Positions 30,465 through 46,405 of a DNA stretch of 46,405 nt are shown one piece after another. How positions within the stretch are numbered: the stretch's first letter is position 1; every line of letters starts with the position of its first letter. The DNA is taken from positions 1 through 46,405 of the forward strand of contig JABDBR010000009.1 of assembly GCA_013288545.1 (NCBI GenBank), read 5' to 3'. Made by a program: the position numbers and the translations under genes. The DNA comes from Nitrososphaerota archaeon (GTDB taxonomy: Archaea > Thermoproteota > Nitrososphaeria > Nitrososphaerales > Nitrosopumilaceae). The notes under the pieces were generated by a model. The model had not been told where the DNA came from and ran no database searches. It saw only the letters and a list, made by a program, of their open reading frames with translations.

Positions 30465-32129
30465 ATGGAATTAATTCAGATATCTAATCAGAAGACTCCT
30501 ACTCTAGGAAAGAAATCAACTATAAGATTTACCCAGAGTATCTGTCCTGAATGTAACATGATACTTGACGCAGAGGTCTTTGAGAGAGATGGCAAGGTCT
30601 TCATGACAAAGACTTGTCCAACACACGGAGAATGCGAAGAACTCTATTTTGGCTCTTATGACATGTACAAAAAATTCAGTACCTACTGGATTGACGGAAA
30701 AGGTGCACATGCTCCAAACGTAATGATTGACAAATGCTCTTGTCCTAACAACTGTGGTCTGTGTTCTAATCACTTGTCCCACAGTGGACTAGCAAACATG
30801 ATAGTTACAAATAGATGTGATCTTACATGCTGGTACTGCTTCTTCTATGTAAAGAAAGGACTAGAAGGTGCATACATGTATGAGCCATCACAAGACCAAG
30901 TAAGAGCAATGATGAAGACACTACGAGCCGAAAGACCAATTCCAGGTAACTCAATGCAGATTACTGGTGGTGAACCAATGCTCAGAGAAGATATCGTTGA
31001 TGTCATCAAAATAATGAAAGAAGAAGGTGTTGATCACATCCAGATGAACACAAACGGAATCAGATTTGCACTAGATCCAGAAGCAATGAGAGAAGTAAGA
31101 CTAGCAGGTGTAAACAATCTTTATCTTAGTTTTGACGGTGTAACTCCAAGAACGAATCCAAAGAATCACTGGGAAATTCCATATGCACTAGAGAGTGCAA
31201 GAAAGACAGGAACTACAGTAGTATTTGTTCCAACAGTTATCAAATCAATCAATGACCATGAATTAGGTCCGATTATCAGATATGCTCAAAAGAATCTCGA
31301 TGTTGTCCATGCAGTAAACTTTCAACCAGTATCATTGACTGGAAGAATGGGAAAGAAAGAACGTGAAAAATACCGTATCACAATACCAGACTGCATACAA
31401 AGAATTGAAGAGCAGACACAAGGTGAAGTAACAGTAGATGACTGGTTCCCAGTTCCAAGTTGCATGCCACTAACAAACGTAATTGAAGCATTCTCTAGCA
31501 AACCAAAGTATGAACTCTCAATCCACTTTGCATGTGGTGCAGGAACATACATCTTTGAAGATGCAGAGACAAAGAAGTTTGTACCATTGACAAGATTTGC
31601 TGACATTCAGGGAATGTTAGAACTCTTTGAAGACAAGGCAGAGGAAATCAAGTCTGGAAAGAACAAATATTTCACAATGCTCGAAGTAGTAAGAAAATTG
31701 TCCAGCTTTATCGATAAAAAGAAACAGCCAGCAGGTCTTGACTTGGCAAAGATGTTCGGTAGCATCTTGATGAAGAGATCATTCAACTCTGTAGGTTCAT
31801 GGCATGTCAAGGGATTATTCTTGGGCATGATGCACTTCCAGGACAAGTACAATGAAGACCTTGAAAGACTCCAAAGATGTGACATTCACTATCTTACACC
31901 AGACTTGAGAATCGTTCCATTCTGTGCCTTTAACGTAATTCCAGAGTGGTATAGAGACAGAATCCAAAAGAAATATTCCATCTCAGTAGAAGAATGGGAG
32001 AAGAGAGTTGGAGTAAAACTCGAAGATGGTCTATACAGAGGAATCATGAGAAGGGGTTCAGGTGACGAGCTTGCAGCAGGCTGTGCAAAGAGTCAGATGA
32101 TGCATGAAGCATCACAAGCCTTGTCTTAG
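30465..32129 (+). CDS. Radical SAM enzyme, probable tetraether lipid synthase (Tes-like)
   Basis: A 554-residue radical SAM protein. Before the catalytic barrel it has a zinc/iron cysteine set (C27-x2-C30 ... C51, and C91, C93, C97, C100), then the SAM cluster motif Cys118-x3-Cys122-x2-Cys125 (RCDLTCWYCF), the ITGGEP motif and FDG. More cysteines in the C-terminal third (FACGAG, RCDIHYL, FCAFN, AGCAKS) suggest an extra cluster. This layout matches the Tes/MJ0619 family, which joins the phytanyl ends of two archaeol lipids to make GDGT tetraethers, and these archaea are known for such lipids. Assignment is by family resemblance; related paralogues of other function exist. Confidence 0.78.
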   Translation: MELIQISNQKTPTLGKKSTIRFTQSICPECNMILDAEVFERDGKVFMTKTCPTHGECEELYFGSYDMYKKFSTYWIDGKGAHAPNVMIDKCSCPNNCGLCSNHLSHSGLANMIVTNRCDLTCWYCFFYVKKGLEGAYMYEPSQDQVRAMMKTLRAERPIPGNSMQITGGEPMLREDIVDVIKIMKEEGVDHIQMNTNGIRFALDPEAMREVRLAGVNNLYLSFDGVTPRTNPKNHWEIPYALESARKTGTTVVFVPTVIKSINDHELGPIIRYAQKNLDVVHAVNFQPVSLTGRMGKKEREKYRITIPDCIQRIEEQTQGEVTVDDWFPVPSCMPLTNVIEAFSSKPKYELSIHFACGAGTYIFEDAETKKFVPLTRFADIQGMLELFEDKAEEIKSGKNKYFTMLEVVRKLSSFIDKKKQPAGLDLAKMFGSILMKRSFNSVGSWHVKGLFLGMMHFQDKYNEDLERLQRCDIHYLTPDLRIVPFCAFNVIPEWYRDRIQKKYSISVEEWEKRVGVKLEDGLYRGIMRRGSGDELAAGCAKSQMMHEASQALS

Positions 32130-32192: not shown

Positions 32193-33224
32193 TTGAAAAT
32201 ACTGATTGTTTCACCGACACATCAAGGAATTGGAGGAGTGGCAAGACATGTTCAGGGACTGGTAAATTTCCTGAAACAAAATGGACATCAAGTGGATATT
32301 ATTTCATCTGAGAATACATTTACAATTCCAGTTAGAAAATTAAAAAACCCGAGTTTTATGATATCTTCCTTTTTGAAGACTAGATTCAAAAAAGACTATG
32401 ATATCATACATGCGCAAAATCCTCCTGCCGCTCTTGCACTAAAAGGAGTGCATGCAAAAAAAATTCTTTCTTTGCATGGGGTGCATCATGAACAGGTTGA
32501 ACTTTTACATGGAAATACAGTAGGCGAAGTGGCAAAAGGTTTTGAAAAACATGCACTGAGCTGGGCTGATACAATAACAGTATCATCACATGAGTTGTAT
32601 GATCATTATACAAAAATGGGATATACGGTACACTATCTTCCAAATGCTATGGATATTTCTTCTCTGCCAACTGGTACTGATAGAAGATATGAAAAGCAGA
32701 TAGTCTATGCTGCAAGAATGTCAAGAGAAAAGGGTATAATTGACATACTCCAAATGGCGCAAAAACTCCCTGATGATATTCATCTCTTACTCTTGGGAAG
32801 TGGTCCTGAAGAAGATCTTGTAAAAAAGGCATGTGAGAACAAGAAGAATCTTCATTTTCTTGGATATCAAGAAAAACAAAAAACAATCGAAATCATGCGT
32901 GGGTCTGACATTGTTATACAGCCTTCTATAATGGAAGGAGGACTAAGCTATACTAGACTTGAAGCAATGGCTTGTAGAGTACCTCTAATTTCTACTACTG
33001 CTGGAGGGAGTAAGGATGTTTTACGTCATATGGAAAATGCATACTTGATAAACCCTAACGATCCAGAAGGATTACTGAAAGCAATTCTAGAATTAATGAA
33101 TAACCCACAAAAAAGAAAATCTATTGCTGAAAATGCATATCAAACAGTAAAAAAATATGATTGGAGTGAAATAGGTAAAATGTATCTAAAATTGTATGAT
33201 GATGTATTAAAACTCAGAATATGA
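32193..33224 (+). CDS. GT4-family glycosyltransferase
   Basis: A 343-residue GT-B glycosyltransferase starting with TTG. N-terminal KILIVSPTHQGIGGVARHV is the usual GT4 acceptor-side loop; the C-terminal domain has VYAARMSREKG near residue 175, then PSIMEGGLSYTRLEAMAC with the E-x7-E donor-binding motif near residue 250. It probably adds a hexose to a lipid-linked glycan; donor unknown. First gene of the glycan region, 63 bases after the Tes-like gene on the same strand. Confidence 0.9.
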   Translation: MKILIVSPTHQGIGGVARHVQGLVNFLKQNGHQVDIISSENTFTIPVRKLKNPSFMISSFLKTRFKKDYDIIHAQNPPAALALKGVHAKKILSLHGVHHEQVELLHGNTVGEVAKGFEKHALSWADTITVSSHELYDHYTKMGYTVHYLPNAMDISSLPTGTDRRYEKQIVYAARMSREKGIIDILQMAQKLPDDIHLLLLGSGPEEDLVKKACENKKNLHFLGYQEKQKTIEIMRGSDIVIQPSIMEGGLSYTRLEAMACRVPLISTTAGGSKDVLRHMENAYLINPNDPEGLLKAILELMNNPQKRKSIAENAYQTVKKYDWSEIGKMYLKLYDDVLKLRI

Positions 33225-33300
33225 AAACTAAGATTATAAAAACAAAAATTTCCTGATGATTTAATATGACGCTTAAAGATAGGATTACACACGAAAAGTT

Positions 33301-34200
33301 ATGAATTTTATAATAACCGGTGGTGCAGGTTTTATCGGAAGCCATCTTGCAGAATATCTTGTTAGTAAAAAGCATCATGTTACAGTGATAGACAATTTTC
33401 ACGTTGGAAGACATGATAATCTAATTAATATTAAAAATGATATTGAAATTATTAAACTCGATATATTAAACTATGAAAAACTCAAAAAAGTGGTAACAAA
33501 CACTGATGGCATATTTCATCACGCTGCATTAACTTCTGTTCAAGATTCTTTGATTCAAAAAGATGAATATTATAAAGTCAATGTTATGGGTACTGAAAAT
33601 ATTTTAAAACTTGCAAGCCAATTTGGATTCAAAGTAATATTTGCAAGTACCGCAAGTGTATATGGTAATCCAAAAAAAATTCCCATCATGGAGAATGTTA
33701 CAAAAAAACCTCTTAATCCTTATGGTGCAACCAAATTAAGAGGAGAAAAGTTATCGATAAAATATGCTAAAAAAGGAGTTTCTGTGATTGCACTAAGATA
33801 TTTCAACGTATATGGGTTACGACAGAATAGAAACTATGCAGGTGTTATTACAAAATTCCTTGATAAAATTAAAGATAAAAAACCGCCGATAATTTTTGGT
33901 GATGGCTATCAAATAAGAGACTTTGTATACGTCGGTGATATTGTTAGGGCTAATTTGTCAGCAATGACAAGTAACTTAAAAACTGGATTCATTAATATTG
34001 GTTCAGGAAAACCGACTTCTGTTAGTAATCTTGCTATATTGATGATAAATTTGTCAGGTTATGAGATGAATCCAGTATATCGAAAATCTAGATCTGGTGA
34101 AATTAATGAAAGTTTAGCTGACATAAGTTTGGCTAGTAAATTACTTGATTGGAAACCTAAAACTCACTTGAAGAATTGGCTAAAAAAAATTATGATTTGA
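33301..34200 (+). CDS. NAD-dependent sugar epimerase (GalE-like SDR)
   Basis: A 299-residue extended short-chain dehydrogenase. The NAD loop GGAGFIGSHL lies at residues 7-16; catalytic residues are the STAS segment near residue 120 and Tyr-x3-Lys in YGATK near residue 142. RDFVYVGDIV and the C-terminal LLDWKPKT are typical of UDP-glucose/UDP-GlcNAc 4-epimerases. The exact nucleotide sugar cannot be told. A TATA-like cttaaag lies about 26 bases upstream. It is convergent with the fusion gene at 34287. Confidence 0.9.
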   Translation: MNFIITGGAGFIGSHLAEYLVSKKHHVTVIDNFHVGRHDNLINIKNDIEIIKLDILNYEKLKKVVTNTDGIFHHAALTSVQDSLIQKDEYYKVNVMGTENILKLASQFGFKVIFASTASVYGNPKKIPIMENVTKKPLNPYGATKLRGEKLSIKYAKKGVSVIALRYFNVYGLRQNRNYAGVITKFLDKIKDKKPPIIFGDGYQIRDFVYVGDIVRANLSAMTSNLKTGFINIGSGKPTSVSNLAILMINLSGYEMNPVYRKSRSGEINESLADISLASKLLDWKPKTHLKNWLKKIMI

Positions 34201-34286
34201 TATTTTACATTCAGTATTACACAGATTCCATTTGTGATGGTAAATTTTTTAACAGATGCCTAAATCTAAAATAATTTTCAAGTTTA

Positions 34287-37058
34287 TTATTTTTCTATCA
34301 TTTGAAATTTGGAATAATCAATCTTGTAAATTTTTAAATGATATTTGAATCCGTAGTCTGCTGAATCAAATATCTTAATTAAATATGGAAAATGGTCATC
34401 GTGATTTAATATGTCTGCAAAAAATGATGGTCTATTATTACTATTGTCTATTACTAGATGAGTTAGACCATGATCTTTTCCATATTGAATGTATGCCTCT
34501 AGAGTGCTAAACCCTTCAGTTGCAATCTGTTTCGGTCCTTCAGAAAGTGAAGTACTTAACGTTGGAAAGTTTGTATTTGTAACTCCTGTAACCAAAAGAT
34601 ATTTTGATTCAGGAGGGTACGGGTTAATCCCTGTAGTATAATTTGCTACATAATGTGACAGAGTGAAAGCTTCTTTTTCATGTTCATTATTTATTTTGAG
34701 AGTAAGAAAAGCAAATGAAGTAATGATTATGCCAATGATTATTATGATCATGAGTGTGTTTTTCACTTTAAATCTCTGCCCGATTTCTTTTATTGCTATA
34801 ACTGATAAGATACTAAAAAATGGAAATAATGGAAAAATAAAACGAACATCTTCGGCTAATTCAAAATATGCATAAAAAATAGCTGGAATCATACATGCAA
34901 TTATGATTATTATTGTAAGATCCTTCTTCTTTTTTTCCTTAAATATTAAGTATATTCCAATAGGCACAAAAAGAATGAAAGTAGGAATTAAAGAAGAAAA
35001 CAAGAATCTGACAAGCATTTCTAATGAGGATATTATGTTATGTGGTGATCCAATATTCCCTCCATAAATAGTAAGTTCATCAGTTGCAGTAGTTAGTCTA
35101 CTAATCAGAGCATCATTACCAACAGTTTCAATTCTTGTAATGGATATTGGAAGTAATAATAAAACAAAAATACATATGGAGAATAAATAACTTATAATAT
35201 TTTTTTTACTTCTATTTCGAATAAAAAATAAGATTGATAATGCTAGTAAAACTCCAAATCCTTCTGTTCTTATCATAGTTGCAAATGCAACAATTGCAAA
35301 AGAAATCCATGTGATCTTCTCTTCATTTCTAAAAAATAATGCCAAGGATGTTGTAATTAATAATATAAACAAAGGATCTGTAATCCCAAGTAGAGAATTT
35401 TGTATGATGTGGGGTTCTAATACAAATAATGCAGAGCCTAATATTGCATAAGATTTATCAAAGAATTTTCTACAAAGAAAATAAACTGGAACTAGAGTTG
35501 ACACAGAAATTATGATGCTTATGAATCGTTGGAGATTCATATACTCTAGAAAATTATTGAAGTGAAAAATTTTGAAGATGAATGATAGTATGATGGGCCA
35601 ACCATTATTTGAAATAGTGTTTATGGTAGGTAGATGTCCCAAAATATTGGTATCTATAGCATATCGAAAGTATTCATATGCATCTAGAGTTACAGGAAGT
35701 TTCCATGGAAAGAAATACAGTCTAAGAAAAATAGCTATGATGCCAATTGTGAACAGAGAAAAAAATGGATTTCTAAATAAAATATTTAATTTTTTTTCTA
35801 TGGGCTCCATGTTTGAAATATTGACAATGAATTGGGTAGAATTTAAGGTGTAATTTTCTGAATTAATTTCTGGACCAGGTTCTAATTTTTCATGTGTGTT
35901 CAAACCTCTTTTAAAATAACGATCTGCTGATATCAGATAAATTGCCTCTGAAGTTGCTGCTAATACAAGTGCACCAGCAACTCCATTAATTCCGTATATT
36001 TTTCCTAATATTACAATGGCAGAAATTTGTACTAGTATGTATATTCCAGAACCTACAAGTACAACTTTACTCTTTTCTGTCCCAAGAAATCTTGAAATGT
36101 ACATGAGATTTATTGTAAGTGGTATTATTGCTAAACTGACAATCTGAATTATTCTTGTTGCTTCAGTGAATTTTGGAAATATCATTGGGAGTATTTTTGG
36201 TGCTAAGAAGACTCCTAAAATTGCAAGAATTATCGATACAATTATGGTAATTTTCTTTAAAATTTTATTTGGATTACCACTTGCATCATGTGGTAATGTA
36301 TATTGATAAACTACTGAAGGTATTAGGCTCAAAAGTGATAGAAATTGAGTTCCTAATTGATAGTTACCAAGTAAAGCAAAACCAAGCATTGGTGCGATGA
36401 ATAACTTATCAGTATTTCCACTAAATGTTCTTGATAGATCTAATACGTAACTATTAATCATGAATCCCTTATGTGACTTTAAAACAGAAAAGTCAAGTTT
36501 TGATTCTTTAAATCCTTTGTATATTCTGGATACATACGGAAAGAATGATACTGCAAATCCAACTATTACTCCATTAGGTCCTAACAGGAAATAGAATCCA
36601 AGTGCTAATCCTACAAAAAGAATTTTTTGGGTTATCATGTATTTCGAATAATCCTTGTACAATTTTCTCCCAAGTATCTCAGCAGTGGCAAGTCCAAAAA
36701 TTGTGTAACCTATAATGTACAAACTTACACCAAAATTGGCAAACATTATGAAAAGAACAATAGATGAGATGATACTAGCAATGATGGCAATAAAAAAAAT
36801 CGGTGCTTGAATTTTCTCCCCCTTTGCAGTATAAATTAACAGAGTATTGCCGGTGCCTAGAAATGAAACTACGCTTGCTATACCGGCTATTGCAATGAAA
36901 TAGCTAACTTCACCATAATGAGTTGTTCCCAATAATGAGGCCAGATAAAACCAAAAAATTCCAGATATTGCATTTGAAATTAAATTTGCAAATCCTATGG
37001 TTGATAGGTCTTTGAATCTTTTTATGAGATTCCAGATTTCATTCATTTTATTTACCAC
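34287..37058 (-). CDS. Fusion of a Wzx-like flippase and a GT-C glycosyltransferase
   Basis: A 923-residue, single uninterrupted frame with two membrane halves. Residues 1-385 look like a polysaccharide flippase of the Wzx/RfbX type: LIKRFKDLSTIGFANLISNAISGIFW opening, about 12 hydrophobic helices, GNTDKLFI near 214 and a polar link around 385-425. Residues 430-923 resemble GT-C glycosyltransferases (ArnT/PMT-like): VTLDAYEYFRYA near 456-467 with the acidic residues expected in the first external loop, then EPHIIQNSLLGITDPLF near 548-564, about ten more helices and a soluble C-terminal domain (about 800-923). Such a protein could move a lipid-linked sugar across the membrane and then use it. 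Separate proteins are the rule; I do not know of this fusion being described. Neighbours make polyprenyl-phosphate sugars (37093). Confidence 0.85.
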   Translation of the reverse strand: MVNKMNEIWNLIKRFKDLSTIGFANLISNAISGIFWFYLASLLGTTHYGEVSYFIAIAGIASVVSFLGTGNTLLIYTAKGEKIQAPIFFIAIIASIISSIVLFIMFANFGVSLYIIGYTIFGLATAEILGRKLYKDYSKYMITQKILFVGLALGFYFLLGPNGVIVGFAVSFFPYVSRIYKGFKESKLDFSVLKSHKGFMINSYVLDLSRTFSGNTDKLFIAPMLGFALLGNYQLGTQFLSLLSLIPSVVYQYTLPHDASGNPNKILKKITIIVSIILAILGVFLAPKILPMIFPKFTEATRIIQIVSLAIIPLTINLMYISRFLGTEKSKVVLVGSGIYILVQISAIVILGKIYGINGVAGALVLAATSEAIYLISADRYFKRGLNTHEKLEPGPEINSENYTLNSTQFIVNISNMEPIEKKLNILFRNPFFSLFTIGIIAIFLRLYFFPWKLPVTLDAYEYFRYAIDTNILGHLPTINTISNNGWPIILSFIFKIFHFNNFLEYMNLQRFISIIISVSTLVPVYFLCRKFFDKSYAILGSALFVLEPHIIQNSLLGITDPLFILLITTSLALFFRNEEKITWISFAIVAFATMIRTEGFGVLLALSILFFIRNRSKKNIISYLFSICIFVLLLLPISITRIETVGNDALISRLTTATDELTIYGGNIGSPHNIISSLEMLVRFLFSSLIPTFILFVPIGIYLIFKEKKKKDLTIIIIIACMIPAIFYAYFELAEDVRFIFPLFPFFSILSVIAIKEIGQRFKVKNTLMIIIIIGIIITSFAFLTLKINNEHEKEAFTLSHYVANYTTGINPYPPESKYLLVTGVTNTNFPTLSTSLSEGPKQIATEGFSTLEAYIQYGKDHGLTHLVIDNSNNRPSFFADILNHDDHFPYLIKIFDSADYGFKYHLKIYKIDYSKFQMIEK

Positions 37059-37092
37059 GGTATGGGTGGCGAATATACATTGTTATCAATTA

Positions 37093-37968
37093 CTAACGAC
37101 GTTCCCTTACCACATTAACAAGTGAATAGAGCATTATGGAAGTGACAAGTAATACTGTCCCTATTAGTATAGTTCCTATTCCTATTAGTGCCACATTTGT
37201 TATGATTTGCCTTGTTGCAGTAAATGCTTGAATAGTCCAAACTGTGAAAAAAAGTCCAATAGCTAAGAAAATAATTCCAGGAATTCCGTAAAATTTTAGA
37301 GGGTGCTCTATTGAAATAAACTTCATAGTGCTAAGTATTACTGATGTACCATGAGAAACTGGATTATGTGTTGAAGTATTTCCTTCATAAAGGACTGTTA
37401 TAGGAACTTCGCTAATTCTAAATTTCTTATTATTTGCTTTGATTAAAATCTCTGTAGAAACTCCCATTCCATAGTCCGACGGTGTTAACTCTCCTAGTAC
37501 TTTCTTATTGTATGCACGAAATCCACTTTGAGAATCTGTCAGTTTTATGTTTGTTGTTGCATTTGTTAAACCGGTAATTGTTTTGATTCCAATTTTTCTA
37601 TATTTTGGTATCTTTGTTGATTGTTCTAAAAATCTTGAACCTATTACAATATCTGATGTATTATTCAGTATCGGTTCTAAGACTTTTGATATATCTTCGA
37701 TTCTATGTTGTCCGTCTGCATCAAATGTGACAAGCACATCTGGATTGATTTCTCTGGCTTTCAGGAATATGCTTCTAATTGCTCCACCATATCCTAAATT
37801 TTTTGGATGATTGATGACAACTGCTCCCATTTTTTCTGCGATAGTGCTAGTCAAATCTGATGAACCGTCATTACATACTATGATTAAATCTGCTACACTT
37901 TGTAATTTTATGATAATTCCAGCAATGTTTTTTTCCTCATTATAAGCTGGTATTCCTACTACTATCAA
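37093..37968 (-). CDS. Polyprenyl-phosphate sugar synthase (GT2, DPM1/GtrB-like)
   Basis: A 291-residue GT2 enzyme beginning TTG. VGIPAYNEEKNI, NDGSSD and the metal-binding Asp83-Ala-Asp85 (TFDADGQH) form the GT-A domain; two C-terminal membrane helices (about 230-250 and 258-284) anchor it. It would transfer glucose or mannose from a nucleotide sugar to dolichol/polyprenyl phosphate on the cytoplasmic side. Its product is just what the neighbouring flippase/GT-C fusion, 34 bases downstream on the same strand, would need, so the two probably work together; that link is inferred. Confidence 0.92.
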   Translation of the reverse strand: MIVVGIPAYNEEKNIAGIIIKLQSVADLIIVCNDGSSDLTSTIAEKMGAVVINHPKNLGYGGAIRSIFLKAREINPDVLVTFDADGQHRIEDISKVLEPILNNTSDIVIGSRFLEQSTKIPKYRKIGIKTITGLTNATTNIKLTDSQSGFRAYNKKVLGELTPSDYGMGVSTEILIKANNKKFRISEVPITVLYEGNTSTHNPVSHGTSVILSTMKFISIEHPLKFYGIPGIIFLAIGLFFTVWTIQAFTATRQIITNVALIGIGTILIGTVLLVTSIMLYSLVNVVRERR

Positions 37969-38189
37969 ATCGTTCTATCGTTTTCTTTTTCAACGACGTT
38001 AAAAATTGTTTTGTTAGTCATACCATTTAGCTAATTTCAAATATTTATTCATAGGCATGTGTTATTTTGAGATGAATTCAATTCCAAAATTATTCTTGAA
38101 CATAAAATCTCTTAATTAAATACTTGATAACTTTCTCATATTGAAAGCCTTTGATACATATGCTGTTATTCTTTGTTATAATTGAATAA

Positions 38190-39083
38190 TTAATGAAAAT
38201 GAGTTACTATAACTCTGAGATTATTTCCTTTATTATATGCTGCAGGAACATAATAATCTCTTCCTAGTAACCAAAAAATCATATACCTCAAATGCTCTGA
38301 TATGGAAACAACTCTAGCTTCGAATGCATCTATCCTTATTATTTTGTAACCTAGTTTATTCATCAACTTTTCTAGACTCAATTTAGTGAAATGGTGAAGA
38401 TGAGGTTGTGTTTTTATTGAGTGCTCCAGAGTTTCTTTATTCTCACAATTTGGAATTTCTAAAAATAGGATCCCATTTTTTGAAAGAACTTTTTTCAAGT
38501 TTTGTAGAACTTCACTATGATTTATCAAATGTTCAAGCACATGAGACATTATTATTACATCAAACTTCTTATCTTGTTTCGTTATGTTTTCTGCAAATTC
38601 TATTTCACATTTTCCTTTTTTGATTTTTTTATTTATGATTTGTATATTTTCTTTTGATGGTTCTATTCCATGAACATCAAATCCATGTTTTTCAAACATT
38701 TCCAAAACAAAGCCTTCTCCAGAACCTAATTCGAGCATATTTTTTCCTGCTATGTAAGGTTTCAAGTACTTGTACTGAGAACGAGCTAGTGATTTTCTTA
38801 CTCCTGTAGCTTCAACTATGTGTCTTATTATCTTAGGTAATTTCTTTATGGCATAGGCGTCATCGACTACCCCATCTTTTATTTTTTTATTGTGTATGTT
38901 TCTAAAAACTCGCCAATATGTTTCTGAGTAATACTCCTTCATACTATTCTGGTCTTTGTAATCTACAAAATGAACTAAGCAATCTTCACACCTCAATATG
39001 GGCAAATTAAAAAAAGAATCATTGTATGCCTGAGTTATGTTTAATGAGTCACAACATTGACATTTGCCTATGCTCTTATCCAT
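38190..39083 (-). CDS. SAM-dependent methyltransferase with N-terminal cysteines
   Basis: A 297-residue class I methyltransferase. The N-terminus has a zinc-like cysteine set (C8, C10, C11 and C32-x2-C35), then the SAM loop ELGSGEG at residues 117-123 and the acidic IEPS at the end of strand 2, and HVLEHL near residue 185. This order is that of sugar/lipid-acting enzymes in polysaccharide clusters (TylF/SPOUT excluded; it is of the Methyltransf_23 kind). It could methylate a sugar of the surface glycan. The 220 bases between it and the GT2 gene contain no gene I can see. Confidence 0.88.
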   Translation of the reverse strand: MDKSIGKCQCCDSLNITQAYNDSFFNLPILRCEDCLVHFVDYKDQNSMKEYYSETYWRVFRNIHNKKIKDGVVDDAYAIKKLPKIIRHIVEATGVRKSLARSQYKYLKPYIAGKNMLELGSGEGFVLEMFEKHGFDVHGIEPSKENIQIINKKIKKGKCEIEFAENITKQDKKFDVIIMSHVLEHLINHSEVLQNLKKVLSKNGILFLEIPNCENKETLEHSIKTQPHLHHFTKLSLEKLMNKLGYKIIRIDAFEARVVSISEHLRYMIFWLLGRDYYVPAAYNKGNNLRVIVTHFH

Positions 39084-39205
39084 TTATTCTACTCATATGG
39101 TAGGTGGTGATATATTTTATAGGATGTAAATTGGCTCAAATTATGTATTAGTAATATAGTGATAATTTAGAAAGGTTTTTTGAAAGAGGTTTTGTATTTT
39201 GAATT

Positions 39206-40228
39206 ATGAAAATACTGTTGCTTACAAGAAGGTATTCTGGAACGGATGGTCATTCTACTGTAATGAATAATGTAGCTTATGCTCTTCTAGACAAAAAAAT
39301 AAAACCAGTGATAGGCGCATTAAACTTTTTACAAGATCCTCCTTCACAAATACCAAAATTGAAATTAAGATGGCCAAATGACATAATTGAATTTAATAAC
39401 TCTGTAAAGGAATATGATCTAATCCATAATTTCCAAACATTATCAAGTTACACTTCCTTACTTACTAACAAGCCATATGTTTTCCATTACTTGGGTATTG
39501 GAACTTCATTACAGGGTATTAACCTAAAGTTGTCAAGAATTTTTACAAAAAGATCGATCAGGAAATACTTGGTATCATCAGCTGTCAGTGCAAATGAATT
39601 ACATCAACTGATTCATGTTAATTCTGATATAGTTCCTTTGGCTATACATCCATCTTTCTTTCGTACTGACTTTAAACCGTTTTCCAGGAATGGTAATCCA
39701 CAATTATTAACAGTAACCAGAATGATGTCATACAAGAAGAATGAGGAATTATTGTACGGGTTTAAGAAATTTTTAACAATGTTTCCAGATTCTCACTTGC
39801 GAATTGTTGGAACCGGACCTCAATGGGATGATCTGCAAAGATTGGTTATCAAATTAGGTGTTTCTTCACATGTTGAATTGCTAGGACAAGTACAACACTC
39901 TGATCTTTTGCCCATATATGCCTCATGTGATATCTTTATCTCAACAAGTAGCAAAGAAGCATTTCCATTACCTGTTATAGAAAGTATGGCCGTCGAAAAA
40001 CCAGTTGTTATTTCTGATATTCCGATTCATCAGGAAATTATTCGTGAATCAAAAGCAGGCGAATGTTATAAAAGTGGAGATTATGAAGATCTTGTAAACA
40101 AATTAGTCATGGTATTAAATGATAAGTTTGTGTACATCTCTAATGCAAAAAAATATGCGCAAAAATGGAATTTGGATAATTTAGGAATAAAATTAACTCA
40201 GATTTATGATGAAATTTTAAGAAATTAA
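39206..40228 (+). CDS. GT4-family glycosyltransferase
   Basis: A 340-residue GT-B enzyme: KILLLTRRYSGTDGHSTV at the N-terminus, TVTRMMSYKKNEELL near residue 170, RIVGTGPQWDDL near 210 and EAFPLPVIESMA with the E-x7-E motif near 255. It stands between two minus-strand genes and overlaps the 3' end of the convergent epimerase by four bases. Sugar donor unknown. Confidence 0.9.
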   Translation: MKILLLTRRYSGTDGHSTVMNNVAYALLDKKIKPVIGALNFLQDPPSQIPKLKLRWPNDIIEFNNSVKEYDLIHNFQTLSSYTSLLTNKPYVFHYLGIGTSLQGINLKLSRIFTKRSIRKYLVSSAVSANELHQLIHVNSDIVPLAIHPSFFRTDFKPFSRNGNPQLLTVTRMMSYKKNEELLYGFKKFLTMFPDSHLRIVGTGPQWDDLQRLVIKLGVSSHVELLGQVQHSDLLPIYASCDIFISTSSKEAFPLPVIESMAVEKPVVISDIPIHQEIIRESKAGECYKSGDYEDLVNKLVMVLNDKFVYISNAKKYAQKWNLDNLGIKLTQIYDEILRN

Positions 40229-41082
40229 AAAAGTGTCATTCGAAGACCTTCTTCTAATGTTATCCGCGGTTGCCAATCAAACTTATTTTTAATTTTAGTA
40301 ATGTCTGCTTTAATTTCATTAATGTATGTTTTCTGGTTCTCATTATAGTTAATATTGAATTTCTTATCTGTTATATCTTCAATATGTTTTACTATGTCAG
40401 AAAATGCATATGATATACCTGTACCAACATTAAATGTTTCAAATTTATAATTAACATCCAATATCTTGATAATTAAACTAACAAAATCATCTATATGTAA
40501 ATAATCTCTTTTACTTTCCTTATTGGTAATAGTTATGTATGTTCCATTTTTAATTGCATCAACTAGATTTGGTATTAAAAAACCAAGTCGCTGAGACTTG
40601 CCAAATATATTAAATGGTCTTAATATGGTTACTTTGAGATCAGAATTGTCACTATACGTTTTACATAATAGTTCGCTGAGGTATTTGCTCATTGTATATG
40701 GCGTTTGTGGATTAACTGGGTGAATTTCATCAACTGGACAATACTTTGGGTAGCCATAGACATAAGTACTAACAAAAATTAATTTTTTTACCTTTTTCTG
40801 GAGACAATATTCTAAAATGTTAAGAGTTGCGGATGTATTATTATCGAAATAATCTGCTAATGTATGTGTATCAACTTGTGGTATTTTACCGGCAGTATGA
40901 ATTACAATGTCAACAGGTTCAGTATTGACCACTTCATTTCTATTTCTCAAATCTATTATTTTCTCATTAATTTTATCTGTTACAACACAAGATTTTGGTA
41001 ACTTGTTTATTATGTGTGAACCAATAAAGCCTGATGAACCTGTCACGAGTATTTTCTTATCTGAAATAGAATCTTGTTTCAT
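40225..41082 (-). CDS. NAD-dependent sugar epimerase/dehydratase (SDR)
   Basis: A 285-residue extended SDR. NAD loop GSSGFIGSHI at residues 15-24, VSTYVYG catalytic Ser/Thr near residue 105 and Tyr-x3-Lys in YTMSK near 132. Shorter than most GalE/RmlB proteins, it is nearest in outline to reductases and epimerases such as RmlD- or GDP-fucose-synthase-like enzymes. A reductase step completing a dTDP- or GDP-deoxysugar is possible. It converges on the GT4 gene with a four-base overlap. Confidence 0.85.
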   Translation of the reverse strand: MKQDSISDKKILVTGSSGFIGSHIINKLPKSCVVTDKINEKIIDLRNRNEVVNTEPVDIVIHTAGKIPQVDTHTLADYFDNNTSATLNILEYCLQKKVKKLIFVSTYVYGYPKYCPVDEIHPVNPQTPYTMSKYLSELLCKTYSDNSDLKVTILRPFNIFGKSQRLGFLIPNLVDAIKNGTYITITNKESKRDYLHIDDFVSLIIKILDVNYKFETFNVGTGISYAFSDIVKHIEDITDKKFNINYNENQKTYINEIKADITKIKNKFDWQPRITLEEGLRMTLF

Positions 41083-41237
41083 TATATGTGAATTTCAAAA
41101 ATTCTTTTAATTTAAAGGCGGTGCTTTCAGTATAAAAGTAATTACACAATAATTGCGTAAACCACATTTTGAACATGATGATCTAGACAGATAATTTGCT
41201 TTATCAGGTTTGGAACTTGACAGTGTGTTCATTTTGA

Positions 41238-41247
41238 CTTTAAATAT
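41238..41247 (+). promoter_or_regulatory. TATA-like box deciding the SDR start at 41270
   Basis: ctttaaatat, centred 27 bases before the ATG at 41270. The upstream in-frame ATG at 41210 would lie before this promoter, so it is unlikely to be used. Confidence 0.6.
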
Positions 41248-41269
41248 TCATGCTAATACAAGCAATACT

Positions 41270-42217
41270 ATGAAAATTATGATTACAGGCGGTTCTGGTT
41301 TTGTAGGTAGTCATCTTTGCGATAAACTGTTACAGAATAAACATGAAGTCATAATATTGACACGAAACGACTCTAAAATCAATAATCTAGGAGGAAATCT
41401 AGACAAAATACGTTTAGAGCATGTTGATGTAACCGATTTCTCTAGATTAGAGAGAAGCATTGAAGAAAATAAACCTGATGTAATATTTCATCTAGCTGGG
41501 GAAACTTCACACAAAAGATCATTTGAAAAACCTATGTATGATATAGATGTCAATTCAAAATCAACACTATGTATTCTTGAAAAAATAAAGAACTTGAATC
41601 TTCAATGTAAATTTATTCTAGGAAGTACCTTCATTGTAATTGGCCGTCCTGAAAAATTACCACTTAACGAAGAAAGCCCTTGTAATCCTACGACAATTTA
41701 TGGCACAAACCGATTGACAAGCGAATATTTCTGTAAAATATATCATAATGTGTACAACTTGGATACTACAATATTTCGAGTCACTAATTCTTTTGGACCA
41801 AGAGAACAACACCAAACTCCTACGAAAAATGCATTGAATTTTTTAATCTACGAGGCTTTTAGAGGGGAAAATGTAACCATCTATAATCAGGGAAAATTTT
41901 TCAGAGATGTTATCTACATTTCTGATGTTGTATCTGCCTTGGAAACCATAATGCTAAAGAGTAGTCCTGGAAATATCTATTGGATATCTTCAGGAGTAAA
42001 AACATGGTTCTATGAGATAGGACAATGGCTAGAGGAACTAACAAATGGAAAAATCCAATATGTTGATCCTCCATCATATACATCAAAAGTCGATGTCGGT
42101 AATTTTCTAGTAGATAACTCAAAATTAAAGTCTCTAGGTTGGTCTCCTAAAACTTCAGTTAAAGAGGGAATTATTAAAACACTGGAATACTTTAATTCCA
42201 TTTACAAATCTTCATGA
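41270..42217 (+). CDS. NAD-dependent sugar-modifying SDR with Tyr-x3-Arg
   Basis: About 315 residues. Rossmann loop GGSGFVGSHL, FHLAGETSH and LGSTFIVIG are as in GDP-mannose or dTDP-glucose dehydratases/epimerases. The catalytic Tyr-x3-Lys reads YGTNR, with Arg in place of the active-site lysine. GPREQHQTPTKN and FRDVIYISDV follow as in GalE/RmlB proteins. The frame extends to an ATG at 41210, but the TATA-like box at 41238-41247 and the normal N-terminus point to 41270. Its activity may be altered; the substrate is unknown. Lies convergent to the GT2 gene at 42221. Confidence 0.87.
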   Translation: MKIMITGGSGFVGSHLCDKLLQNKHEVIILTRNDSKINNLGGNLDKIRLEHVDVTDFSRLERSIEENKPDVIFHLAGETSHKRSFEKPMYDIDVNSKSTLCILEKIKNLNLQCKFILGSTFIVIGRPEKLPLNEESPCNPTTIYGTNRLTSEYFCKIYHNVYNLDTTIFRVTNSFGPREQHQTPTKNALNFLIYEAFRGENVTIYNQGKFFRDVIYISDVVSALETIMLKSSPGNIYWISSGVKTWFYEIGQWLEELTNGKIQYVDPPSYTSKVDVGNFLVDNSKLKSLGWSPKTSVKEGIIKTLEYFNSIYKSS

Positions 42218-42220
42218 TTC

Positions 42221-43255
42221 TTAACTAATCACGCTTCTTGCCAATTTACTAAGAACAGTGATGAAATTATTGAATAGTTTGTTAATCAATTTGGTAGATA
42301 CCTCTTTTGGTACAAATACCTCATTTTGGAAATAATGTGTGATTTTTTTATCATCGATTATTCGTGTACTTTGAAGTTCAGCATATCTTTTTGATATCTG
42401 TTTCCTGTTTTTTATGATATCTGAATATGCTCGAATTTTTGGTACAATCAATCCTTTTGAAAGGAAAAAAAAGAAAATGCCTATTTCTACCAAAAATAAC
42501 ATTGGTAATATTCTGTAAAATGTTCTCTTTGAATAATGTGTCAAAAGGCAATAATGTCTATTTCTTTCAAGTAAAAAGAATTTGTATGGGCTCCATTTAA
42601 AACTGAAACTCTCTGCATGGTACACTATTGATTTTGGAATATAAAATGACTTAATTCCAAGAAGCAACGATCTCCATCCTAAATCCAAGTCATCATGGTA
42701 TGCAAATAGGAAAGGATCAAACAAGCCAATTCTCTTGATTATCTTTAGTGATGTGAAAAGGCAAGCTCCTGAAGAATATCCTACAGTTTCATCATTGTTA
42801 AATTGACCATTGTCAATTTCGCCTTTACCGCGAGAATATCCAAATCCAAAAAGTTGGATCATATTTCCTGCACTGTTAAAGATTTGATGATTAGATGTAG
42901 AAAGAAGTTTTGGCTGGTATAATCCATCCCCAAATTTATTGTATGATAAAAGTAGCTCTTTTAACCATTGTGAATCTACAATGGTGTCGGGATTTAGTAT
43001 TGCTACAAATTCTCCTTTCGCATATCGCAATCCCACATTGTTTCCTTCACAATATCCTTCATTTTTGTCATTTTCAATTAGATTAATCATATTATATTTT
43101 TCTTTACATAATCTATGACTATTATCACTTGATGCATTATCTACTACAATAATTTCTAAGTTATCATAATTCGTATTTAATACTGATTCAACACAATTAA
43201 GTAATAACTCCCCTGCATTATAGTTGAGAATAATTACACTGATTTTTGGATTCAT
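42221..43255 (-). CDS. GT2 rhamnosyltransferase-like glycosyltransferase
   Basis: A 344-residue GT-A enzyme: ISVIILNYNAGELLLNCVESV, VVDNASSDNS, the metal site NPDT near residue 91 and LFAYHDDLDLGWRSLLLG near residue 185, which is typical of the WbbL/RfbF rhamnosyltransferase group. A hydrophobic helix near residues 245-270 attaches it to the membrane. With rmlA and rmlB next to it on the same strand, dTDP-rhamnose or a relative is a likely donor. Confidence 0.9.
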   Translation of the reverse strand: MNPKISVIILNYNAGELLLNCVESVLNTNYDNLEIIVVDNASSDNSHRLCKEKYNMINLIENDKNEGYCEGNNVGLRYAKGEFVAILNPDTIVDSQWLKELLLSYNKFGDGLYQPKLLSTSNHQIFNSAGNMIQLFGFGYSRGKGEIDNGQFNNDETVGYSSGACLFTSLKIIKRIGLFDPFLFAYHDDLDLGWRSLLLGIKSFYIPKSIVYHAESFSFKWSPYKFFLLERNRHYCLLTHYSKRTFYRILPMLFLVEIGIFFFFLSKGLIVPKIRAYSDIIKNRKQISKRYAELQSTRIIDDKKITHYFQNEVFVPKEVSTKLINKLFNNFITVLSKLARSVIS

Positions 43256-43322
43256 ATTACTTGGACTCTTATAATGAAAGATGATCTAGCTTATTTAATA
43301 TTGAGAGATGAAAAAAAGTGTA

Positions 43323-44390
43323 TTATAACGATATTTTAGTTCCTTCGCCAAGTAGAAATATTTTGTTATCATTGTTTTTTGGGTTAGAAATTATCTCCGA
43401 GTTGAATGCAATTATGCTATCTCTTATCTTGATATTGGTTTCAATATTGCAATTAGGCATAATAATGGAATTCTCAATGTCGCATTTTGATATCTTAGAG
43501 TTATCTCCTATGCTTGTATTGGGACCAATACGTGTTTCAGGATGAATCACACAATTTTTTCCTATTATAACTGGACCTATTATCTTTGAATTGGATTTGA
43601 TTATAGTATTTTCTCCAACCATGACCTTTCCAGTTATAGTTACATTGAGTTCTTTTATTCCATGAAAGTATGGTTCTATGCTTTCTAGAATTACTTTATT
43701 GGCATGTAATATATCATTGGGAGTTCCAGTGTCTTTCCAATAATCTGTTACCATGTAATATGTAATTTTGTATTTCTCATCTAATATCATTTGTAACGCG
43801 TCAGTAATCTCCAGTTCATTTCTCCATGAGGGTTTTAGTCTATCAATAATGTCAAATATTGTTGGAGTTAGAAAATAGATTCCTGTTACAGCTAAATTGG
43901 ATCGAGGATTTTCTGGCTTTTCCATTATTTTTATTATTTGACCGTCTTTTACTTCTGCTATTCCAAAAGCAGTGGGATTACTAACTTCACATAATAATAT
44001 TGAAGCATCAGCATCCGATTGTTGGAAATTTCTTGCATATTCACTGATGTGTTCTTTTATGATATTATCTCCCAAAATTACCACAAACTTTTGATCCCCC
44101 ACAAAATCTTTACACAAACGTACTGCATGAGAGATTCCTCTTGGTTGATCTTGTTGAATGTATGATATCTTGACCCCAAATCTTTCTCCTGAACCATAAT
44201 ATTCCTGAACTTTTGTCGCTCCTAATCCTCCAACAATTATTGCGATATCTGTAATTCCTGCCTCTTTCAGTGCTTCTAAGCAATACTGTGACATGGGTTT
44301 GTTTGCAATGGGTAAAAGTTGTTTTGGGCCAGTATGAGTAAGTGGGCGCAATCTTGTACCATGACCTCCATGAAGAATTATTCCTTTCAT
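43323..44390 (-). CDS. rmlA: Glucose-1-phosphate thymidylyltransferase (long form)
   Basis: A 355-residue nucleotidyltransferase. The N-terminal domain opens with GGHGTRLRPLTHTGPKQL (pyrophosphorylase loop and catalytic Lys), with LGDN for the metal near residue 112. Residues about 245-345 are hexapeptide repeats (INSTIIKSNSKIIG-like pattern) forming a left-handed beta helix, as in archaeal/actinobacterial long RmlA proteins. It makes dTDP-glucose from dTTP and glucose-1-phosphate. The gene follows rmlB, 29 bases downstream on the same strand. UDP- or other NDP-glucose activity cannot be excluded. Confidence 0.93.
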   Translation of the reverse strand: MKGIILHGGHGTRLRPLTHTGPKQLLPIANKPMSQYCLEALKEAGITDIAIIVGGLGATKVQEYYGSGERFGVKISYIQQDQPRGISHAVRLCKDFVGDQKFVVILGDNIIKEHISEYARNFQQSDADASILLCEVSNPTAFGIAEVKDGQIIKIMEKPENPRSNLAVTGIYFLTPTIFDIIDRLKPSWRNELEITDALQMILDEKYKITYYMVTDYWKDTGTPNDILHANKVILESIEPYFHGIKELNVTITGKVMVGENTIIKSNSKIIGPVIIGKNCVIHPETRIGPNTSIGDNSKISKCDIENSIIMPNCNIETNIKIRDSIIAFNSEIISNPKNNDNKIFLLGEGTKISL

Positions 44391-44419
44391 TTAATTCACA
44401 ATCGTTTATTGGAATTACC

Positions 44420-45412
44420 TTATCTAGTTTTCCAAGGGCTGGAACTAAATTCTTTATTAGAAATCTTTTCCAAATTTTTCTTATTTTTCATATACCAATC
44501 AACCGTATATTCTAGTCCTTTTTCAAAATTATGAGAAGGTTTCCAGTGTAATTCTCTGCAAATTTTTGACGAATCAAGACTATATCGATAATCATGACCT
44601 GGACGATCAGTTACAAGTTGAATTAGTTCATTTGATTTTCCCATAATTTTTAATATTTTTTTCACCACTGTCACATTATCTATTTCATTTGAGGCCGAAA
44701 TATTGTATGACTGTCCAAATTTTCCATCAAAATATACTTTTAACAAAGCCTTACAATGATCTACTACAAAAATCCAGTCTCTGATATTCGTACCTTTTCC
44801 ATAAATAGGGATTTTCTTATTCTTTGCAGCTAGTGTAATAACTTTGGGAATAAGTTTTTCTGGAGATTGTCTTGGACCATAGTTGTTGGTACATCTAGTT
44901 GTGATTACCTTACAATCATATGTTGTAAAATATGATTGTACTAGTAACTCTGCAGATGCCTTTGATGCTGCATATGGACTCGAAGGATTAAAACAATGAT
45001 TCTCATCTGCACTTTGAGTCTTAAGACTCCCAAATACTTCATCAGTCGATATTTGAATGAGTTGTTTTTTGAATTTTTTAATTGATTCTAAGATTGTATA
45101 TGCACCTATAATATTTGAATTCATGAAGGGTTTTGGATCTGAAATACTTCTATCTACATGAGATTCTGCAGCAAAATTGAAAACCACATCAGATTTTGAT
45201 ATTAATTTCTCAACTAATTTTTGGTTATTGATGTTTCCTTTGATGAATTCATAATTTTTGTTGTTCTTAATGTGATTGAGATTGTGTTTATTAGATCCTA
45301 TGAGTTGGGCATCCAAGTTTATTATTTTACAATCAGGATAATTATTTATAACGTGTAAAATAAAATTACTACCAATAAATCCTAAACCGCCTGTTACTAG
45401 AAATTTCATCAT
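44420..45412 (-). CDS. rmlB: dTDP-glucose 4,6-dehydratase
   Basis: A 330-residue extended SDR with the full RmlB signature: GGLGFIGSNF, NFAAESHVDRSI, STDEVFGS with the catalytic Asp-Glu, and Tyr-x3-Lys in YAASK; RCTNNYGPRQ and RDWIFVVDHC follow. It converts dTDP-glucose to dTDP-4-keto-6-deoxyglucose, taking the product of the adjacent rmlA. Two ATGs in a row allow either as start. Its long upstream gap (150 bases) separates it from the divergent cupin gene, which may share a regulatory region. Confidence 0.95.
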   Translation of the reverse strand: MMKFLVTGGLGFIGSNFILHVINNYPDCKIINLDAQLIGSNKHNLNHIKNNKNYEFIKGNINNQKLVEKLISKSDVVFNFAAESHVDRSISDPKPFMNSNIIGAYTILESIKKFKKQLIQISTDEVFGSLKTQSADENHCFNPSSPYAASKASAELLVQSYFTTYDCKVITTRCTNNYGPRQSPEKLIPKVITLAAKNKKIPIYGKGTNIRDWIFVVDHCKALLKVYFDGKFGQSYNISASNEIDNVTVVKKILKIMGKSNELIQLVTDRPGHDYRYSLDSSKICRELHWKPSHNFEKGLEYTVDWYMKNKKNLEKISNKEFSSSPWKTR

Positions 45413-45569
45413 ACTGCTAATTACCTTCTAACCATTCCTTTTGCCTGAATATCACATAAGACCTTGTCGATAATACTATTTATGATTAATTCAAAACTAT
45501 GTGTGAATAGTTTTCTATGTTACAATGAAATCAATATTCTTATAATGATACAAATCCAATGTGCAACTA

Positions 45570-46034
45570 ATGGAAGATGAAGGTGTACAGATAATAAAAC
45601 TTGAAAAACATGAAACAAAAGATATTAGAAATAAACATGTCAATGGGGCCCTGACAGTTATTTGGAGAGACTGGGATGATAAACCATCCATATCGCCTAA
45701 AATGATCTATGTTACAAGCGCTAATCCTTGGGAAATAAAAGGTCCTCACTTACATACAAAAAGAGATAGTTATTTTGTTTGTATCCAAGGCAAAGTTGTA
45801 TTTGTAGTACAAGATCATGATGGAAAATATAATGAAATAGAAACTAATGAAGAGGAACCTGTAATGATTCATGTGCCAAAAAACTATGCTTCAGCCCACA
45901 TGAATATAACTAATGAAAAAGCATCAATTCTTACTATTGCAAATCTTGCATGGCGACCTAATGATAATGAGATGCAAAATGTAAATTTTGATGATTATGA
46001 CTGGACAAAATGGAAGAAAAATGTTACAAACTAA
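45570..46034 (+). CDS. RmlC-like cupin (dTDP-4-keto-sugar epimerase/isomerase)
   Basis: About 154 residues. GPHLHTKRDSYF and HVPKNYASAH are cupin motifs with the histidines expected for RmlC or FdtA-type enzymes; the C-terminal FDDYDWTKW recalls the D-P-x-x-x-I-x-W tail of RmlC. It may epimerise at C3/C5 or isomerise the keto-sugar that rmlB makes. A GTG at 45561 extends the frame, but the TATA-like tcttataatg (45537-45546) is about 28 bases before the ATG at 45570. It is shorter than RmlC (about 180), so an exact reaction is not assigned. Confidence 0.83.
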   Translation: MEDEGVQIIKLEKHETKDIRNKHVNGALTVIWRDWDDKPSISPKMIYVTSANPWEIKGPHLHTKRDSYFVCIQGKVVFVVQDHDGKYNEIETNEEEPVMIHVPKNYASAHMNITNEKASILTIANLAWRPNDNEMQNVNFDDYDWTKWKKNVTN

Positions 46035-46130
46035 ACATAATTTCACTTTAAGACTTGATAATTACTCCCAAAACATATTTTTGTATTGATCAAATTTTAA
46101 ATTGTTGGATAATACTAAAGATGAGACAAT

Positions 46131-46405
46131 ATGGATAAAAAAATAACAATTGTTCTTGTAGACGAGTCAGTTGATACGAACATCATAAAATCTAAAATTC
46201 AAGAATTTGAAAATGTTAAAATTATTTCATACGATTACTATACTCATAAATCATTAAATAATTTGGGATTAAGTCATGAAAAAATAGAAAACTATCTTGA
46301 TGAAAAAGACCGTTTGTTTATTGATAAAATGGTTGTAGAATTATCTACTGGTTGGTATAAACATGAAGGTTTACAAAAATTTCTTCAATATGAAAATGTG
46401 AATCT
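46131..46405 (+). CDS. Start of a surface-glycan region protein of unknown function, cut by window end
   Basis: ATG at 46131 opens a frame that continues beyond the window (91 codons seen, no stop). The visible part begins with a beta-strand (KITIVLVDESVD) and is rich in Lys, Asn, Ile and Tyr. No family can be named from this portion. It lies about 100 bases after the cupin on the same strand, and a TATA-like ttttaaatt at 46095-46103 precedes it, so it is probably another glycan-assembly gene. Confidence 0.75.
   Translation, partial: MDKKITIVLVDESVDTNIIKSKIQEFENVKIISYDYYTHKSLNNLGLSHEKIENYLDEKDRLFIDKMVVELSTGWYKHEGLQKFLQYENVN

Follow-up and report, generated by a model that had tools for sequence, protein, structure and literature searches.

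A flippase and a GT-C glycosyltransferase fused in one archaeal protein, with a predicted place in three-component transmembrane glycosylation

Introduction

Three-component systems for glycosylation across the membrane divide their work among a GT2-type glycosyltransferase (GT), which loads polyprenyl phosphate with a sugar, a flippase, which turns the lipid outward, and a GT-C-type enzyme, which uses the sugar on the outside (excerpts of PMC8035078 and PMC11127046). Systems with a Wzx- or MATE-type flippase are described in these excerpts, the MATE family in PMC11127046. Here we analyse a 46,405-nucleotide (nt) stretch of DNA from a Nitrososphaerota archaeon (positions 1 to 46,405 of contig JABDBR010000009.1, assembly GCA_013288545.1; hereafter the window), in which one open reading frame on the minus strand (34287..37058) appears to join the last two of these components in a single polypeptide.

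The division of labour predicted for this locus is like that of the bacterial GtrA-GtrB-Gtr, CsbB-GtcA-YfhO, GacI-GacK-GacL and Citrobacter ORF15-ORF14-ORF12 systems, whose components are separate proteins as far as the excerpts go. The initial annotation of the window, made from the letters alone, had remarked that flippases and GT-C enzymes are usually separate, which is the case in the described systems compared here, and the words "fused" and "fusion" do not occur in the excerpted texts of PMC8035078 and PMC11127046. Likewise, the AglD/AglR/AglS set that adds the last N-glycan mannose of Haloferax volcanii comprises a dolichol-phosphate sugar synthase, a flippase or flippase helper and an outside transferase (excerpts of PMC3871713). 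These are separate proteins, whereas the last two components are fused in the window; the systems are likened by role. AglD (a GT2 enzyme with a C-terminal UPF0104 flippase-like domain) and MprF (a flippase-synthase) also combine lipid modification and a flippase domain within a single chain (excerpts of PMC5898192). However, their flippase domain is of the UPF0104/MprF type and has the lipid-loading enzyme as its partner, whereas the window protein joins a MOP-type domain to an enzyme predicted to use the lipid on the outside. Searches of open-access PMC brought up no account of a MOP flippase joined to a GT-C enzyme. The three-component kind is known, and the fusion of its flippase and GT-C components appears to be new.

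The fused frame and its two halves

The fused frame is free of stop codons from 37058 down to 34287 and comprises 923 codons from a GTG start. The protein may instead be 919 residues long, starting at an in-frame ATG at codon 5 that aligns with the ATG start of a TA_20 relative (VBPW01000083.1, L012); this relative shares 72% identity with the window protein in the best segment and is cut at residue 865 by the contig end. One continuous 923-residue frame had been read in the initial annotation, which named no strand, and neither a stop nor a frameshift separates the halves in the window or in the frames of six other genomes. Among these six, G334 (identical in its fused sequence to L012) runs open to the contig end at residue 865, and G006 is a genome in a single 1.97-Mb contig. 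Since the frame is uninterrupted across genomes, one of them a single contig, the fusion is attributable neither to chance nor to assembly error. The ratio of nonsynonymous to synonymous substitution rates (dN/dS) is low in both halves in the two pairs compared, at about 0.02 in the flippase half and about 0.11 in the GT-C half for G009 against G014.

The N-terminal half (residues 1-384; 35907..37058, minus strand) has about 12 hydrophobic segments and is by family a Wzx/MOP-type (Polysacc_synt) flippase. A Pfam scan of the whole protein found no flippase family at E ≤ 0.01, and the half was compared with its relatives to decide its assignment. The Polysacc_synt model PF01943 matches 37 of the 55 flippase halves aligned from related genomes (alignment A3) at E ≤ 0.01, the best at 3e-10. 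Profile-profile comparison of the flippase half against 14 archaeal PF01943 flippases, hand-chosen and mostly high-scoring proteins of other archaea from the phylum PF01943 search, returned a probability of 99.5% (E 4.9e-23) over 359 of the 384 columns. The controls stayed low, at 0.2% for the GT-C profile against the same 14 flippases and 1.2% for the flippase profile against the GT-C halves. UPF0104, the MprF/AglD-type flippase family, is absent among the families matched by this half at E ≤ 0.01, Polysacc_synt families matching instead. Lys79 and Gln238 are invariant (55/55), and Asp217 (53/55) and Lys218 (52/55) nearly so.

The C-terminal half (residues 424-923; 34290..35789, minus strand), with about 11 hydrophobic segments, is by family a PMT_2-type GT-C enzyme. 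PMT_2 (PF13231) matches residues 490-637 with 31.9 bits, above the cut-off of 26.1, and recurs in 43 of the 45 aligned GT-C halves (alignment A4; E ≤ 0.01). At the same threshold the window protein also matches the DUF2079, PMT and Alg9-type families, and STT3/AglB (PF02516) is not among its matches. A conserved acidic residue marks the first outside loop of GT-C enzymes. Asp459 (codon 35682..35684, minus strand), in the first predicted outside loop and invariant in all 44 halves with a letter at that position, fits this pattern, the loop being placed outside by a home-made prediction. Arg446 is conserved in 43 of 44 halves, and Gln510, Arg597 and Glu599 in all 45. A search of solved structures with the A4 profile of this half gave one match at chance level and weak oligosaccharyltransferase (OST) fragments, touching the archaeal OST 3waj (E 0.0026 over 44 positions) and the eukaryote-type OST chain 8i9p (E 0.0041).

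Because the family matches extend across the aligned halves and the profile-profile result stands beside low controls, both domain identities hold at the level of sequence family. The Wzx-type flippase and the GT-C enzyme proposed in the initial annotation are thus borne out, the former by the PF01943 and profile-profile matches and the latter by PMT_2 and Asp459. Alignment A3 omits G009, the near-duplicates L057, L048 and L046, and matches of about 330 residues or less, and A4 omits G009, L057, L088, distant GT-C paralogues and matches of about 440 residues or less; L063 and L016 are represented as the window and L012.

Linker and membrane topology

The two halves are connected by a polar linker, which the alignments place at about residues 385-423 (35790..35906, minus strand), in good agreement with the earlier estimate of about 385-425. 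It varies in length and sequence among the fused members and is predicted to be cytosolic. Topology was read from hydropathy averaged with a home-made script, together with lysine and arginine (K+R) content. In the flippase half, 13 raw peaks reduce to 12 spans once overlapping ones are merged, and the GT-C half has 11. MOP/Wzx flippases have 12 or more membrane spans, with both termini inside, a number that an automatic count of 11 for the flippase half (see Discussion) does not reach. In the GT-C half, K+R contents of 15.2 vs 7.3 favour an inside N-terminus. From the span counts read with the K+R content, the linker is predicted to be cytosolic, and an outside position is predicted for Asp459 and for the polar C-terminal domain (residues 785-923; 34290..34706, minus strand), the latter delimited by hydropathy and topology prediction. 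A cytosolic linker is predicted to suit both halves, with the C-terminus of the flippase and the N-terminus of the GT-C enzyme both inside.

Two features of other linkers are worth recording. In the fused member G079 (gene at L066 7906-10707), the linker repeats the seven-residue unit KFEDQST/KFENQST four times with slight variation, and the near-identical fused genes of G009 and G014 (L002, L003) have linkers that differ by a 10-residue stretch.

Association with a GT2 gene

Upstream of the fused gene, on the same strand, lies a GT2 gene of the dolichol/polyprenyl-phosphate sugar synthase-like kind (PF00535; 37093..37968, minus strand), whose stop is 34 nt upstream of the fused GTG. Its product matches the DPM synthase chain 5mlz (phmmer E 1.2e-14), in keeping with the adjacent DPM1-like enzyme of the initial annotation, and also the PpgS and AglJ models, both under cut-off. 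All seven fused loci have a same-strand GT2 gene 13-46 nt upstream. Among the 20 pairs in which flippase and GT-C are unfused neighbours in this order, 13 have a GT2 gene at an upstream distance of -60 to 200 nt from the flippase, distances being measured between stop-to-stop frames. The trio of GT2, flippase and GT-C genes is conserved, and its members occur together, unfused, in many relatives.

Distribution of the fusion

A search for the full-length architecture in related genomes, as suggested in the initial annotation, found it in seven of 250 genomes of the family, the window's included: G000, G009, G014, G006 (genus code g1), G334, G079 and G416 (g25). The fused members are only about 50% identical across the seven genomes. 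The fused profile matched in 71 of the 250 family genomes (E ≤ 1e-30), of which 67 (all except G407, G409, G412 and G415) were classified by a script's score rule within the fetched stretches. Seven carry the fusion, 20 have flippase and GT-C genes in this order as same-strand neighbours within 100 nt, two have them in reverse order and two convergent. In the remainder the genes lie further apart in one locus (10 genomes) or at different places (8), or one half only is present (18).

The unfused neighbours, such as those of G001 (L005/L072), are homologous to the two halves of the window protein (at 55% and 44-45% identity) and keep the same order, with GT2 upstream; they differ in being separate genes, which in G001 lie about 40 nt apart by called starts. 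Among these neighbour pairs, the flippase and GT-C genes of G225 (L067), G355 (L069) and G405 (L126) lie in one frame interrupted by a lone stop codon, which leaves these loci one stop codon away from the fused state. Long frames in G225, G143, G355, G116 and G405 looked fused and were rejected, each consisting of two frames with stop codons between. G304 was likewise not counted, as its flippase lies in two frames; this gene (L071) is seemingly broken, by assembly error or decay, and intact relatives exist.

Outside the family, the fused profile listed no fused protein in samples of 400 order genomes and 398 phylum genomes. Long frames of 841-1011 residues in G086, G069 and G574 matched the GT-C profile only, with the flippase profile unmatched at E ≤ 10; by eye, G086 resembles STT3. 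The PF01943 search of 200 phylum genomes yielded a sole frame above 700 residues (G579), which matched neither profile at E ≤ 10, appears by eye to be frame-shifted after the flippase start and was hence not counted as a fusion. That search is no proof of absence, since it missed the window's own fused protein at E ≤ 1e-6. The search for the fusion was centred on the phylum and extended beyond it to plasmid records, where the fusion was not matched, and to one scan each of viral contigs, with no relative, and genome contigs, with one relative.

Seven loci hold a further GT-C paralogue, distant in sequence and about 545-570 residues long, in the neighbourhood of the pair or of the main GT-C gene (L045 5120-6796, L069 1653-3281, L059 7119-8804, L075 267-1970, L076 12193-13875, L090 4524-6173 and L091 5163-6860).

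History of the two halves

Phylogenies were built on short membrane proteins with long branches, as careful trees of 24 of 63 flippase rows and 25 of 64 GT-C rows, hand-picked around the fused ones, and as quick trees of 61 and 62 rows. In the flippase tree, a single clade of the seven fused halves is rejected (approximately unbiased test, p-AU 0.002), because the unfused, reverse-order G350 groups with G416 (96/93). This tree needs two state changes, be it two separate fusions or a fusion and a loss. In the GT-C tree, a single clade of fused halves is not rejected (p-AU 0.30), but the test rejects (p-AU 0.0007) a grouping of the five members that the flippase tree places in one clade. The difference is clearest for G006, the GT-C half of which groups with G079 and G416 (100/99), whereas its flippase half groups with G000, G009, G014 and G334 (98/99). 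The larger quick trees agree on this placement, as do shared-site counts of 11 vs 1 for the flippase half and 7 vs 12 for the GT-C half (Fisher p 0.003, a comparison resting on few sites). The GT2 tree favours neither placement (p-AU 0.12).

Median identity over 21 pairs of fused loci falls from 75% for GT2 to 58% for the flippase half and 45% for the GT-C half. G009 and G014 have diverged about twice as far at synonymous sites in the GT-C half (dS 0.36) as in the flippase half (dS 0.16). As the halves have partly different trees, the GT-C half appears to have been exchanged while the flippase half was kept, and the simplest reading of the comparisons is that the GT-C half was probably replaced behind a steadier GT2 and flippase. 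In Shigella, gtrA and gtrB are not known to differ between serotypes. The serotype-specific Gtr enzyme differs among them (excerpts of PMC11127046), and a GT-C exchange behind the GT2-flippase pair may be likened to this variation.

Genomic context

The glycan locus from 32 kb on contains two GT4-type genes, GT2-type genes, epimerases, a methyltransferase and RmlA- and RmlB-type genes. An NAD-dependent sugar epimerase/dehydratase gene (33301..34200, plus strand) adjoins the fused gene on the opposite strand, as context only. Further along lie genes for an RmlA-type glucose-1-phosphate thymidylyltransferase (43323..44390, minus strand; TIGR01208 above cut-off) and an RmlB-type dTDP-glucose 4,6-dehydratase (44420..45412, minus strand; TIGR01181 above cut-off). 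The G+C content is 0.37-0.42 at 21-33 kb and 0.28-0.34 from 33 kb, with a 1-kb dip to 0.30 at 12-13 kb; the drop at the glycan locus (33000-46405) resembles exchanged surface-glycan islands. Adjoining this locus at 30465-32129 on the plus strand is a gene whose 554-residue product looks by eye like a Radical-SAM protein.

The window's contig is 48.6 kb long and belongs to a 1.39-Mb draft genome of 57 contigs, 85% complete. This genome carries an archaeal AmoA gene (E 1.6e-107), which identifies the organism as an ammonia oxidiser, and separately encodes an STT3-family protein.

Discussion

We consider it probable, on present evidence, that the locus encodes an archaeal three-component transmembrane glycosylation system and that the fused protein performs its second and third steps; the GT2 link and both domain families bear the features of such a system at sequence level. 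In the first step, judged by homology and position, the upstream GT2 would load one sugar from a nucleotide sugar onto dolichol or polyprenyl phosphate on the cytoplasmic side. The N-terminal MOP-type half would then turn the lipid-sugar outward, as its fold family suggests. Finally, the GT-C half, with an active site facing outward, would transfer the sugar to a surface acceptor, a role to which its family and the invariant Asp459 point. An N-glycan acceptor is possible since the same genome has an STT3-family gene; the acceptor would most likely be an S-layer N-glycan made by AglB, or else a related glycan of the cell surface. The fusion would have arisen where the two genes already stood side by side in one operon, flippase before GT-C.

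Several results weigh against this assignment. Scanned alone, residues 1-384 reach PF01943 with E 5.1e-6 and 26.5 bits, under the cut-off of 28.2, and the flippase-half profile found no match among solved structures at E ≤ 1. AlphaFold2 models lend neither half structural support, with mean predicted local distance difference test scores of 38.4 for the flippase half and 35.6 for the GT-C half, each from a two-row alignment. The automatic span count gave 11 for the flippase half, with K+R sums of 15.5 on odd loops vs 11.4, the wrong way round; adding by hand a span near residue 172 moves the K/R-rich loops inside and is the sole mend for these sums. Some GT-C members show STT3 likeness, 5 of 45 to PF02516 (weakly) and 12 of 45 to TIGR04154. 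Occurrence is patchy, the window protein being matched in 7 of the 37 genomes of its genus (E ≤ 0.001), and seven of the 20 unfused neighbour pairs have no adjoining GT2 by the distance rule, one of them being G404, in which the GT2 overlaps the flippase frame and hence falls outside the rule.

The best-surviving alternative, which we hold to be possible yet unlikely, is an oligosaccharide route, in which GTs of the cluster would extend the lipid-linked sugar, the Wzx half would flip it, and the GT-C half would transfer it en bloc or join repeat units. The locus has genes that would suit such a route, namely two of GT4 type, another of GT2 type and those for sugar nucleotides, and the resemblance of the adjacent GT2 to AglJ, though under cut-off, points the same way; AglJ acts at the start of the Haloferax glycan (excerpts of PMC3871713). 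The weak STT3 similarity of some members and the contacts of the A4 profile with 3waj and 8i9p are also consistent with it. However, the window protein itself matches PMT_2, DUF2079, PMT and Alg9-type families and not STT3 at E ≤ 0.01, the GT2 beside the fused genes is DPM-synthase-like, and the genome has a separate gene of the STT3 family.

Less probable still is a passive tether, created when the stop between two translationally coupled genes was lost, with the domains working independently and gaining little beyond equal dosage. The three loci with a single in-frame stop show how short the way to such a state is, and both the variable linkers, one with repeats, and the partly different histories of the halves would be expected of it. 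Yet the fusion has been kept in seven genomes among sequences about 50% identical, though G350 may be a reversal. An artefact joining two genes in a 57-contig, 85% complete draft deserves almost no credence, being refuted by the other assemblies, with seven genomes fused and that of G006 a single contig.

For the preferred assignment of flipping and transfer to one protein, the manner of cooperation between the halves is a separate matter. The initial annotation had proposed that the protein could receive a polyprenyl-linked sugar from the adjacent enzyme, turn it outward and transfer it directly, as a compact route. The pathway of synthase, flippase and outward-facing GT-C fits the known three-component kind, and a compact route is a fair inference from it; a tight, direct channel fares worse, because halves that seem to have recombined separately argue against close co-adaptation. 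We regard as rather doubtful the stronger proposal that the MOP half passes its lipid-sugar directly to the GT-C half to which it is joined, and that the latter serves as a swappable specificity cassette, exchanged by recombination behind a conserved core of GT2 and flippase and thereby varying surface glycans.

Flippases have been assigned by genetics or gene context, and the authors themselves state that direct or biochemical evidence is lacking (excerpts of PMC11127046 and PMC5836110). The pairing of a flippase with its lipid-linked sugar is hard to settle, and a covalent pair of flippase and transferase names the partner by construction. The fused protein also offers a single chain in which flipping and transfer could be examined together. 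If the proposal of direct transfer and a swappable GT-C half were true, one polypeptide would commit one lipid-sugar to one surface glycan, and glycans would vary as in bacterial gtr systems. For the archaeal family as a whole, the fusion leads one to expect joint action on surface glycans by the flippase and GT-C genes that are unfused neighbours.

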